This document shows positions 3 to 7,929 of a DNA stretch of 64,000 bases, piece by piece. Every line of letters starts with the position of its first letter. Positions within the stretch are counted from its first letter, which is position 1. Both the position numbers and the translations under genes were made by a program. Under the pieces are notes generated by a model, which worked only from the letters and a program-made list of their open reading frames with translations, searched no databases and had not been told where the DNA came from. Source of the stretch: Agromyces bauzanensis (GTDB taxonomy: Bacteria; Actinomycetota; Actinomycetes; Actinomycetales; Microbacteriaceae); assembly GCF_014645655.1 (NCBI RefSeq), contig NZ_BMMD01000005.1:62001-126000 (forward strand), read 5' to 3'.

Positions 3-352
3 TCAGCCGGCGATGGCGGCCGCGCGAAGCAGGAGTGCGACCGCCAGTTCGCCCCCATCCGCTCGTAGGTGACTTTCGCGTGCCGGTTGCGGCACCGGAC
101 TTCGCACTTCGCGATCTCGGCCGTGACCCGCTGCCACGAATACGCCGCCTTCGCGAGTCTCATCACCTCCGCCGCCTTCTCGATGTGCGTCACGATGATC
201 GACGGTGCTTCTCGAGGTTCCCGGCGTAGTACCGTCGAGCCCTGGCCGCATTGCACGCACGACAGACCGACTGCCGCCCGTCGGGCGACGCTGATCGCAC
301 GTTGAACTGCGAGTGCTCGAGTGGGAGGCCTGCGGGTCGAGCAGGTCTTCAC
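3..352 (-). pseudogene. Frameshifted remnant of a short HNH/zinc-finger endonuclease-like gene
   Basis: Read on the minus strand, a GTG at 352 behind a good ribosome site (AGGAGG, 5 bases away) opens with VKTCST. The family-like sequence then continues in another frame (QFNVRSASPDGRQSVCRAC, then ARARRYYAGNLEKHRR, to about position 200) and in a third frame (IEKAAEVMRLAKAAYSWQRV, then EIAKCEVRCRNRHAKVTYER). This order of a Cys-containing N-terminus, a CRAC knuckle and a CxxC-N-H C-terminal motif is that of short actinobacterial/phage HNH proteins. At least two frame breaks are present, and the second Cys of the usual CANCH motif reads Arg (RCRNRH), so the gene looks dead. The family name comes from recalled motifs. 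The TGA at 3-5 is inside the window, so the remnant is complete at its 3' end. Confidence 0.6.
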
Positions 353-514: not shown

Positions 515-841
515 GCCCCTATAGCTCAGTTGGTTAGAGCAACGGACTTCAAAACAGAAAATGGAGCGCCAGCGCCGAAATGCGTTGGATGACCGCCGCT
601 ATATGCTGGAACACCCTGAGAGCCCGAGGTACTCGCCCTCCTGGGCAGTGACAATCCGAGGGATTGGGCAATCAGCAGGTAACCGCGAGGGAACCTCAGA
701 GACTACACGCGGCGCACCTGACCGGAGCCAGGCTCCGAAGGTGAAGATATAGTCCAGACTGCAAGCCGCTCGACGGTGGCTGGGGAAACCCAGTGCAGCA
801 GGTTAATCCGTGGGTCCAGGGTTCGAGTCCCTGTGGGGGCA
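515..841 (+). tRNA. tRNA-Lys(UUU), interrupted by a group I intron
   Basis: Exons 515-549 and 803-841 join into a 74-nt cloverleaf. The acceptor is GCCCCTA/TGGGGGC with one G-U pair, the D stem GCTC/GAGC, the anticodon stem ACGGA/TCCGT, and the T arm CAGGG-TTCGAGT-CCCTG with discriminator A841. The seven-base anticodon loop of the joined exons is CTTTTAA, giving anticodon TTT (Lys). The interruption falls between anticodon bases 34 and 35. CCA is not encoded. Conventional tRNA finders may miss this gene because of the 253-nt insert. Confidence 0.93.
550..802 (+). ncRNA. Self-splicing group I intron in the tRNA-Lys anticodon loop
   Basis: The 5' exon ends in U549 and the intron ends in G802, as group I splicing requires. 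P1 can form between exon CUU (547-549) and the guide GAG (564-566) with the U-G wobble at the splice site, extended by C550-G563 and A551-U562. P2 is CCAGCGC/GCGTTGG (569-575/582-588). P3 is GCCGC (595-599) with GCGGC (709-713). P4 is TGCTG (604-608) with CAGCA (673-677). P6 carries a GCGA tetraloop (685-688). The P7 halves are AGACTA (700-705) and TAGTC (750-754), inside the conserved string GAAGATATAGTCC. P8 is CACCT/AGGTG (715-719/739-743). P9 is CTGGG-GAAA-CCCAG (780-793). No believable homing endonuclease is encoded in it. The core resembles small tRNA introns such as Azoarcus tRNA-Ile; the subgroup was not determined. Confidence 0.93.
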
Positions 842-5653: not shown

Positions 5654-6775
5654 GTGCAGACCGACTCCCGCATCGTCGTTCGTCCGGCGCGGCTCGCCGA
5701 CGGCCGCGAGCTCATCTACTTCGACGACGCCGACACCACGCTGCCGCCCGAACGCGCCGTCGACGAGCGTGAGCTCGACCCTCGCCCCGTGACGGCGCAG
5801 ATGCGCCAGGACGCGCTCACGGGCGAGTGGATCTCGATCGCCGCGGCCCGGCAGAATCGCGTGTTCCTGCCGCCTGCGGATCTCGACCCACTGGCCCCGC
5901 AGCGACCGGGCAACCCGTCGGAGATCCCGAGTGTCTACGACGTCGCGGTGTTCGAGAACCGCTCGCCGTCGTTCGGTCCTCAGTCGGCGACGGATGCCCC
6001 GAGCGCCGACGCCCTGGCGTCGCTCCGTCGCATCGGGCTCGAGCGCACGCTGCCCTCGGTGGGCCGGTGCGAGGTGGTGTGCTTCAGCCCCGAGCACGAG
6101 GGCTCGTTCGGCACCCTGAGCCGCTCGCGCGCCCGCACCGTGATCGAGGCCTGGGCGCAGCGAACCGCCGCGCTCTCGGCCCTGCCCGGGGTCGAGGAGG
6201 TGTTCCCTTTCGAGAATCGCGGCCGTGAGATCGGCGTGACGCTGCCGCATCCGCACGGACAGATCTACGCGTACCCGTACGTGACGCCGCGCACCGAACG
6301 GCTGCTCGCGGCCATCGACGCCTACGGGCCCACGCTCATGGCCGACCTCCTCGGGCACGAACGCCGCGGCCCGCGCGTGCTGCTCGCGGGCGAGCACTGG
6401 ACGGCGTTCGTGCCGTTCGCGGCGCGCTGGCCGATCGAGGTGCACCTGCTCCCCGATCGGCACGTGCCCGACTTCGCCGAGACCACGCTCGCCGAACGCG
6501 ACGAGCTCGCCACGCTCTACCTGCGCCTGCTCCGCGGGATCGACCGCCTCTACGACACGCCCACCCCGTACATCGCCGCATGGCACCAGGCACCGGTGCA
6601 CGAGCGTCGCGACGACGTGCGGCTCATGCTCCAGCTGACGAGCCCGCGGCGCGCCGCCGACAAGCTGAAGTACCTCGCGGGTTCGGAGGCCGCGATGGGA
6701 GCATGGATCGGGGACGTCACCCCCGAGTCGCAGGCCGAGGCACTGCGCGCGGCCATCGAAGGAGTCGAGGCATGA
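5654..6775 (+). CDS. galT: Galactose-1-phosphate uridylyltransferase
   Basis: A 373-residue HIT-superfamily enzyme that transfers UMP between UDP-glucose and galactose-1-phosphate in the Leloir pathway. The active-site motif is LPHPHGQIYAYPY with His199-Pro-His201, His201 corresponding to the uridylylated residue. Other family points are RQDALTGEW near the N-terminus, VYDVAVFENRSPSF and HWTAFVPFAARWP. It starts with GTG 6 bases behind a good -10 and has no ribosome site, so it is likely leaderless. Its stop overlaps the galK start (ATGA), so the two are translationally coupled. No galE is in the window. Confidence 0.96.
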   Translation: MQTDSRIVVRPARLADGRELIYFDDADTTLPPERAVDERELDPRPVTAQMRQDALTGEWISIAAARQNRVFLPPADLDPLAPQRPGNPSEIPSVYDVAVFENRSPSFGPQSATDAPSADALASLRRIGLERTLPSVGRCEVVCFSPEHEGSFGTLSRSRARTVIEAWAQRTAALSALPGVEEVFPFENRGREIGVTLPHPHGQIYAYPYVTPRTERLLAAIDAYGPTLMADLLGHERRGPRVLLAGEHWTAFVPFAARWPIEVHLLPDRHVPDFAETTLAERDELATLYLRLLRGIDRLYDTPTPYIAAWHQAPVHERRDDVRLMLQLTSPRRAADKLKYLAGSEAAMGAWIGDVTPESQAEALRAAIEGVEA

Positions 6776-7929
6776 GCGACATCGCCGGCGCGATGCATCT
6801 GTTCGCCGAGCGGTTCGGCCGCCGCCCCGCGGGTGTCTGGTCGTCCCCCGGCCGCGTGAACCTCATCGGCGAGCACACCGATTACAACGACGGGTTCGTG
6901 TTCCCCTTCGCGATCGACCGGCGAACCACCGTCGCCCTCGGCGACCGCGACGATCGGCTCATCCGGGTCTCCTCGACGTTCTCGCCCGACGCCGTCGAAC
7001 TGCACGTCGACGAGCTCTCCCCCGACGCCGTCGCAGGCTGGGCGGCCTACCCGCTGGGCGTCGCCTGGGCGCTCGGCGAGTACGGCGCCGACCTCGAACA
7101 CGTGCGCGGGGTCGACCTGCACATCGACTCGGACGTGCCGGTGGGCGCCGGCCTCTCCTCGTCGGCGGCCCTCGAGTGCGCCGTCGCGCTCACACTCGAC
7201 GAGCATTGGGGCCTCGGCTTCGACCGGCCGACGCTCGCGAAGGTGGGCCGCCTCACGGAGAACCGCGTCGTCGGCGCGCCGACCGGCATCATGGACCAGT
7301 CGGCGTCGCTGCTCGGCGAAGTCGACTCGGGCGTGCTCCTCGATTGCCGCAGCCTCGACGCCGACGTCATCCCGCTGCACTTCGCGGCCGAGGGCCTCTC
7401 GCTCCTCGTGATCGACACCCGCGTCGAGCATGCGCACGCCGACGGCGGGTACGCCGCGCGGCGCGCCTCCTGCGAGGCGGGAGCACGCGGACTCGGCGTC
7501 GGCTCGCTGCGGGATCTCCGCGTGGACGACCTCGATCGGGCGGCCGAGGTGCTCGACGACGAGACGTTCCGCCGCGTGCGCCACGTCGTCACCGAGAACC
7601 AGCGCGTGCTCGACACCGTTCGCACGCTGCGCGAGCACGGACCGGGCGCCATCGGGCCGTATCTCGACGCGTCGCACGCGTCGATGCGCGACGACTTCGA
7701 GATCTCGGTGCCCGAACTCGATCTCGCGGTGGAGACGGCACAGGCGAACGGCGCGATCGGCGCCCGCATGACCGGCGGCGGGTTCGGCGGCTCAGCGATC
7801 GCCCTCGTCATCAACCCACTCGTGCCCGTGATCACGCGCGAGGTCGAGGCGGCGTTCGCCGAGCGCGGCTACCGGGCGCCCACCGTCTTCACGGTGCGCG
7901 CCGATCAGGGCGCCAGGCGCGACGCCTGA
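6772..7929 (+). CDS. galK: Galactokinase
   Basis: A 385-residue GHMP kinase that phosphorylates alpha-D-galactose at C1 with ATP. Three signatures are intact: the substrate loop GRVNLIGEHTDYNDGFVFP at about 25-43, the ATP loop VPVGAGLSSSAALEC at about 123-137, and the C-terminal glycine loop MTGGGFGGSAIAL. The ATG at 6772-6774 overlaps the galT TGA. Length is normal for the family. Confidence 0.97.
   Translation: MSDIAGAMHLFAERFGRRPAGVWSSPGRVNLIGEHTDYNDGFVFPFAIDRRTTVALGDRDDRLIRVSSTFSPDAVELHVDELSPDAVAGWAAYPLGVAWALGEYGADLEHVRGVDLHIDSDVPVGAGLSSSAALECAVALTLDEHWGLGFDRPTLAKVGRLTENRVVGAPTGIMDQSASLLGEVDSGVLLDCRSLDADVIPLHFAAEGLSLLVIDTRVEHAHADGGYAARRASCEAGARGLGVGSLRDLRVDDLDRAAEVLDDETFRRVRHVVTENQRVLDTVRTLREHGPGAIGPYLDASHASMRDDFEISVPELDLAVETAQANGAIGARMTGGGFGGSAIALVINPLVPVITREVEAAFAERGYRAPTVFTVRADQGARRDA

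Follow-up and report, generated by a model that had tools for sequence, protein, structure and literature searches.

A group I intron within the anticodon of the only tRNA-Lys(UUU) gene found in Agromyces bauzanensis, and its association with an HNH-endonuclease gene

Group I introns interrupt several bacterial tRNA genes. Passages of one report name them in tRNA-Leu(UAA), tRNA-fMet, and tRNA-Arg(CCU) (PMC5733544), parts of a study of Beggiatoaceae place them in tRNA-Arg(TCT) and tRNA-Leu(TAA) (PMC4853749), and a review of bacterial group I introns, in sections, covers the Azoarcus tRNA-Ile intron (PMC3984707). Like the intron described here, the known bacterial tRNA introns are small ribozymes without an open reading frame (ORF) that sit in the anticodon loop; the present intron differs from them in its host, tRNA-Lys(UUU), and in its P3-P6 domain, which resembles that of rRNA introns. 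The rRNA introns of the same phylum (L104-L107 and L110-L119) are alike in P3-P6 and P7-P8 but differ in host, P1-P2, and P9. Insertions of 22 to 49 nt in cyanobacterial tRNA-Arg, tRNA-Gly, and tRNA-Lys(CTT) have also been reported as group I introns in passages of PMC5733544, and the last of these is likewise a claimed intron in a tRNA-Lys anticodon loop. Those insertions, however, have no room for a group I core at that length, interrupt another anticodon, and are given no group I structure in the portion of that text examined. Another parallel is F-CphI of cyanophage S-PM2, described in parts of PMC6083498 as a free-standing enzyme that cuts intronless psbA while the intron protects its own copy. 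Here too a free-standing endonuclease gene lies beside an intron-bearing conserved gene, but the gene is a bacterial chromosomal tRNA gene, the protein is a putative HNH endonuclease, and the copy nearest the intron under study is broken. A first-pass annotation, made from the sequence alone, had called a tRNA-Lys(UUU) host unfamiliar, and searches of the open-access literature turned up no account of a group I intron in this host.

The window is the whole stretch of A. bauzanensis DNA that was analyzed, 64,000 nucleotides in length. On its forward strand, positions 515 to 841 hold a gene for tRNA-Lys(UUU) that a group I intron of 253 nt (550 to 802) splits between U34 and U35 (Table 1). When ARAGORN was run on the window with introns disallowed, no tRNA was found, and with introns allowed the program took a wrong junction and reported positions 515 to 842 as a tRNA-Leu(caa) whose intron measures 251 nt; under such a label, the lysine gene may go unseen in automatic annotation. 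Once positions 515 to 549 and 803 to 841 were joined, the same program called tRNA-Lys(ttt). The Rfam group I model RF00028 matched the window over positions 540 to 768 with 59.4 bits (E 1.2e-13; cut-off 50), and its single match in the whole A. bauzanensis genome was this intron (E 2.1e-14). The terminal G of the intron was present at 15 of 15 Agromyces loci, a set found without requiring a G. Scans of positions 380 to 1300 for a sigma-70 promoter and a terminator found none, and the single-strand folding energy of 515 to 841 was not unusual (z -1.70). Elsewhere in the window, positions 5654 to 7929 hold ORFs that by eye read like galactose-1-phosphate uridylyltransferase and galactokinase, beside a DeoR-like regulator gene. 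The first-pass annotation had proposed a group I intron of this length, site, and terminal G in tRNA-Lys(UUU) and had suggested a search with Rfam group I models; the score over the threshold, the joined-exon call, and the covariation and splice-site pairing given below bear it out. We conclude that the finding is real and its coordinates exact, and that the anticodon, as read from the joined exons, is UUU and the predicted structure is far from chance.

Table 1. Coordinates of the split tRNA gene, the predicted ribozyme helices, and the neighboring gene remnant (positions in the window)
Feature	Position	Strand	Basis
5' exon of tRNA-Lys(UUU), G1 to U34	515..549	+	ARAGORN tRNA-Lys(ttt) when joined with 803-841
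Group I intron, 253 nt, 3'-terminal G, type A (rRNA-like P3-P6)	550..802	+	RF00028, 59.4 bits; covariation; present in 15/60 Agromyces genomes
3' exon of tRNA-Lys(UUU), U35 to A73, without encoded CCA	803..841	+	Joined-exon ARAGORN call; sequence
P1: exon CUU and C550 (547-550) with internal guide GGAG (563-566), U549.G564 at splice site	547..566	+	Hand-drawn fold; invariant in 28 sequences
P2 hairpin	569..588	+	Double-sided change in 5/7 pairs
P3 (594-599/709-714), with the P4-P6 domain (604-695) inside it	594..714	+	Fold and covariation; P3-P6 similar to rRNA introns
P4 (604-608/673-677), P5 (614-616/666-668), and P6 (678-680/693-695)	within 604..695	+	Hand-drawn fold
P7 (701-705 with 750-754, pseudoknot with P3) and P8 (715-719/739-743)	701..754	+	Fold and covariation
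P9 (759-762/795-798) with two hairpins, P9a and GAAA-capped P9b	759..798	+	Fold and covariation
Broken HNH-endonuclease gene remnant, upstream of and divergent from the tRNA	38..321	-	tblastn pieces 38-271 and 205-321 in different frames

The P1-P9 structure was drawn by hand on the window sequence and then counted over an alignment of 28 introns, 25 of the window's type (type A) and 3 of a related type called C, all of them found with a search pattern that demanded the terminal G. With the P3/P7 pseudoknot included, 98.4% of 1456 cells pair, and sliding by 1 to 3 columns dropped pairing to 33 to 47%. Both sides of the pair had changed in compensation at 17 of 52 pairs, against a shuffled mean of 6.3, and 0 of 500 shuffles reached 17. 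Such double-sided changes fell in P3 (3 of 6 pairs), P7 (2 of 5; GACUA/UAGUC in the window intron), and P8 (1 of 5), among other helices. P1, P4, and P5 are invariant across the 28 introns, so that covariation says nothing on them, P6 has zero double changes, and single pairs of P2, P6, and P9a are broken in at most three sequences each. The U.G pair at the 5' splice site, in which U34 takes part, is present in 28 of 28 introns. RNAalifold alone misfolded part of the intron, and the P7 pseudoknot is beyond what it draws. All core elements that the first-pass annotation had listed (P3, P4, P7, P8, a GNRA-capped P9, and an exon guide) could thus be drawn, with GAAA as the P9b cap and with P3 and P7 compensated. 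We conclude that the predicted P3-P9 core with its P3/P7 pseudoknot is supported by covariation.

Fifteen of the 60 Agromyces genomes have the intron. Thirteen of them matched the Rfam group I model, 12 above the cut-off, and in the other two, G018 and G024, the intron was recognized by DNA match. A pattern composed of the end of the D arm, exon CUU, and the intron start gave 53 loci when one genome per species was searched (84,980 species); it was built from two of the three intron types, so other introns at the site would be missed. These loci come from Agromyces, Microbacterium, other Microbacteriaceae, Nesterenkonia, Phytoactinopolyspora, Demequina, Svornostia, a Solirubrobacteraceae bin, and other metagenome bins. 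A G precedes the 3' exon at 52 of the 53, and at the Demequina locus (L128) no 3' exon was found within 600 nt. By length and identity, 20 loci are of type A, which includes the window intron (247 to 265 nt), 29 are of type B (214 to 220 nt), and 3 are of type C (245 to 252 nt). Types B and C were recognized by position, conserved ends, and similarity, with Rfam scores below the cut-off of 50 for a type B member (L136, 35.5 bits) and a type C member (L137, 32.9 bits). One metagenome bin labelled Bifidobacterium breve contains an intron 97% identical to that of Svornostia (L149:1915-2200), and the label of that bin is probably wrong. A collection of phages held no copy of the split gene, and one of plasmids gave one 44-base match, to the 3' exon. 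Viral contigs gave 0 matches to the full pattern; with a looser pattern, one candidate (L342) stood out among the 80 matches listed, without a tRNA or group I match. The tree of the 28 introns is mostly unresolved, with 4 of 25 inner branches well supported, and shows no decisive transfer between genera.

A gene for an HNH protein lies within 1 kb of 31 of the 53 loci, 14 of them of type A (out of 20) and 17 of type B (out of 29). It is missing from 6 type A loci, 12 type B loci, all 3 type C loci, and the one locus left untyped, absences that are an upper limit because some flanks are short (469 bases downstream in L131, for example). In 26 of the 31, the gene has an intact reading frame of at least 140 codons, and one of these, L141, has an aberrant end. 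In type A it is upstream and divergent at 13 of 14 loci and downstream in the same direction at L121, whereas in type B it is downstream in the same direction at 17 of 17. The opposite sides suggest that the pairing of HNH gene and intron arose more than once. The protein matched PHROG 2255, "HNH endonuclease" (E 8e-32), and D89, D91, H92, and N128 are invariant in 25 sequences. No Pfam or NCBIfam nuclease family matched, and a PDB sequence search with the HNH alignment gave no match. A structure model from the 25 sequences (pLDDT 92) has a strand-strand-helix region; a fold search of the model against the PDB returned none at E 0.001, and its few weak matches were HNH proteins. Relatives less than 60% identical occur in 183 phage records, so the family is widespread.

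Within the 60 Agromyces genomes, 32 had an HNH match, at 33 places that all adjoin a tRNA gene, 30 of them tRNA-Lys(UUU) and 3 tRNA-Arg(UCU). Among 149 Microbacterium genomes, 28 had a match: 19 at tRNA-Lys (14 with an intron and 5 with a gene that has an odd T loop), six near tRNA-Arg(UCU), and three weak ones without a tRNA nearby (L241, L245, and L246). HNH homologues near tRNA-Arg(UCU) (L216-L218, L237-L240, L243, L244, and L247) often lie in a tRNA-Arg/tRNA-His region.

The tRNA-Lys(UUU) allele could be typed in 57 of the 60 Agromyces genomes; the patterns found no gene in the other three (G013, G069, and G072), which were dropped. Fifteen alleles have the intron (HNH gene at 10, absent at 5), 15 are divergent tRNAs with an odd T loop (HNH gene at 14), and 27 are uninterrupted and of canonical type (HNH gene at 6), one of the last, L215, with a mismatched anticodon stem. 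The same neighbor gene, a luciferase-like monooxygenase gene by its reading, stands beside the tRNA at 11 of the 15 loci with the intron, at 6 of the 15 with an odd T loop, and at 11 of the 27 of canonical type. It is on the downstream side at all of these except one canonical-type locus, where it is on the other side. At least those alleles are therefore alternatives at one locus; at the remaining loci, the neighbor gene is outside the available flanks or the locus differs. The split tRNA of the window matches the canonical tRNA of L176 at 59 of 74 positions. Given that match and the neighbor common to split and canonical-type loci, it appears that the whole tRNA allele was replaced, rather than an intron inserted into a resident gene.

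Altered alleles are enriched beside the HNH gene in both genera. The canonical junction GACTTTTAATC is present in 0 of the 19 Microbacterium genomes with an HNH gene at tRNA-Lys and in 117 of the 130 others (Fisher 7e-16), and its reversed control pattern is present in 2 of 149. The contrast is weaker in Agromyces, where canonical-type alleles are found in 6 of 30 genomes with the HNH gene and in 21 of 27 without (p 1.6e-5); both p values overstate independence because the genomes are related. The six HNH-bearing canonical-type genes count against a strict rule. Genes with odd T loops, such as GTCGGAA or ATCGTAA instead of TTCGA, stand in place of the canonical gene and mostly beside an HNH gene in Agromyces (L182, L184, L194, and L203-L214) and Microbacterium (L219-L221, L227, and L242), and 11 of the 12 in L203-L214 go undetected by ARAGORN. 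Because L182 and L184 have a canonical anticodon arm, the alleles do not point to one recognition target for the putative enzyme.

Our best explanation for these associations is that tRNA allele and intron move as a unit when a single chromosomal locus is exchanged, perhaps with the aid of the neighboring HNH endonuclease, whose gene is open in many relatives and broken in the window; the odd-T-loop alleles would then be a second way to escape the putative cutting. Such spread looks like collaborative homing at a tRNA gene, with a cleavage that we infer. In its fullest form, Microbacteriaceae would carry a chromosomal homing system in which the HNH protein cuts canonical genes for an essential tRNA, tRNA-Lys(UUU), and travels with whichever allele escapes, be it through either intron type or through changed stems and T loop, and the intron would confer immunity within a gene drive that acts on decoding itself. 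We hold this full form tentatively, at not quite an even chance. A rival account treats the HNH gene as a hitchhiker unrelated to the intron, since tRNA genes often serve as insertion sites, and has the intron inherited vertically with many losses. The homologues beside tRNA-Arg(UCU), the six beside canonical-type tRNA-Lys genes, and an intron tree that does not reject few changes between genera are in keeping with that account; the adjacency of all 33 Agromyces HNH places to a tRNA gene, 30 of them tRNA-Lys(UUU), the enrichment of altered alleles in both genera, and the placement of the HNH gene, which is upstream at 13 type A loci and downstream at one other type A locus and at 17 of type B, speak against it. 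The hitchhiker account is a serious contender, to which we would give somewhat less than even odds.

A further question is where the intron came from. Intron segments were compared by local alignment, with z taken from a null of mononucleotide shuffles. The comparison introns came from 29 loci (L092-L120), less L109 and L120, which by look had neither a tRNA nor an rRNA host, and comprised 14 introns by eye in rRNA genes and 13 other tRNA introns, a set from which the tRNA-Leu intron is absent. The P3-P6 domain of the window intron resembled that of the 14 rRNA introns of the same phylum (median z 13.2) and of type C (28.8) and had no likeness to type B (1.1) or to the 13 other tRNA introns (0.1). 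Type B P3-P6, in turn, gave z 4.0 against the other tRNA introns and 1.0 against the rRNA introns. In the remaining segments, the window intron resembled the rRNA introns in P7-P8 (z 5.9) and not in P1-P2 (-0.3) or P9 (0.3). The two intron types are presumably IB4-like (window type) and IC3-like (type B); the z of 0.1 against other tRNA introns speaks against IC3-like membership for the window intron. We conclude from these alignments that two different ribozymes came to occupy the position between U34 and U35 of tRNA-Lys(UUU).

A swap of the P1-P2 domain between types A and B was also considered (z 2.9 for the window intron against B, 5.1 for a B query against A). The likeness fell to z 0.8 to 2.2 once the exon-pairing bases were masked, and the swap is kept as a hint only; between types B and C, the masked z stayed at 1.5 to 3.9. 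The P1-P2 likeness among the Lys introns is largely because all pair with the same exon. Among the comparison loci themselves, the group I introns of L092-L103 and L108, of the same phylum, sit in tRNAs labelled by ARAGORN as Asn(GUU), Thr, His, Ser, and Gln(CUG), though some of these labels may be shifted, as with the Leu call in the window. The Asn intron of L092 lies by eye between positions 35 and 36, and the introns of L097 and L098 apparently have an HNH-like ORF inside. The introns seen by eye in rRNA genes (L104-L107 and L110-L119) include several near the 3' end of 16S and at conserved 23S sites, some in tandem.

The first-pass annotation had thought it plausible that the intron jumped by reverse splicing from the tRNA-Leu(UAA) intron into a resident tRNA-Lys gene. 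The relative position after exon CUU is the same in both, and a P9 with two hairpins presumably resembles that of tRNA introns. The comparison goes the other way: P3-P6 sides with rRNA introns and not with the 13 other tRNA introns, a set without tRNA-Leu, and the exons differ from the canonical L176 allele at 15 of 74 positions. We therefore disfavor a jump from tRNA-Leu, which seems improbable.

Whether the cell needs the intron to be spliced depends on what other tRNA could read AAA. The A. bauzanensis genome is a 3.72-Mb draft of 93 contigs, 99.89% complete. The tRNA model found 46 further tRNA-like places in it, ARAGORN named 44 of these, and the sole lysine tRNA among the 44 has the anticodon CUU; the two remaining places are weak and by eye lack a lysine anticodon. 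The uninterrupted junction GGACTTTTAATCC is present in 29 of the 60 Agromyces genomes, with 0 occurrences in A. bauzanensis and 0 across all 15 intron-bearing Agromyces genomes. A looser pattern matched seven places in the A. bauzanensis genome, none of them another UUU gene. Thus, neither the tRNA model, ARAGORN, nor the junction and looser patterns found a second tRNA-Lys(UUU) in the draft, which could miss one. The first-pass annotation had held that splicing would be essential for growth if there was no other UUU tRNA, and the count of genes agrees with its premise.

An anticodon of CUU is not expected, by decoding rules, to read AAA. With no other UUU gene found in the draft, splicing should be required to read that codon, and we conclude from the gene content that it probably is. 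Lysine is encoded by AAA 9 times and by AAG 239 times (AAA 9 of 248) in 56 ORFs of the window, which were picked by length and third-position GC and some of which may not be genes. The rarity of AAA may make slow splicing tolerable. In the proposed reaction, which we infer from established group I biochemistry, the intron would fold within the precursor RNA into the P1-P9 ribozyme, and a guanosine bound at P7 would attack after U34, at the U.G pair in P1. The freed U34 would then join U35, the intron ending in G would be released, and the anticodon UUU would be rebuilt.

The rarity of AAA would also suit a split gene that is dead, with AAA read by another tRNA. No such UUU gene was found in the draft, the CUU tRNA would not be expected to substitute, and the 28 introns conserve both the ribozyme core and the exon junction, with compensation, so a dead gene is very improbable. 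A tRNA-Asn(GUU), made by splicing one base further upstream, as the ARAGORN label Asn(gtt) at the related locus L091 would have it, can be dismissed as next to impossible: introns so shifted would end not in G but in A (L004 and L090) or T (L091), the U.G pair of P1 sits at U34, an ordinary tRNA-Asn is elsewhere in the genome (L047), and the uninterrupted genes with the same neighbor are Lys. We conclude that the need for a group I intron to be spliced from the only tRNA-Lys(UUU) found is strongly supported by the predicted structure and the gene content. Taken as a whole, ribozyme splicing of a sole gene together with HNH-aided spread of the allele is very probably the best explanation of the locus.

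The locus extends bacterial group I introns to another host tRNA, and the reading of a sense codon in these cultured soil bacteria apparently depends on a ribozyme. Programs that search such a genome for tRNAs can overlook its tRNA-Lys(UUU) or mistake it for a tRNA-Leu. Because two unlike introns occupy one site, each accompanied in many genomes by the same kind of endonuclease mostly on opposite sides of the gene, ideas on how tRNA introns arise and spread could be put to the test in bacteria that grow in culture.
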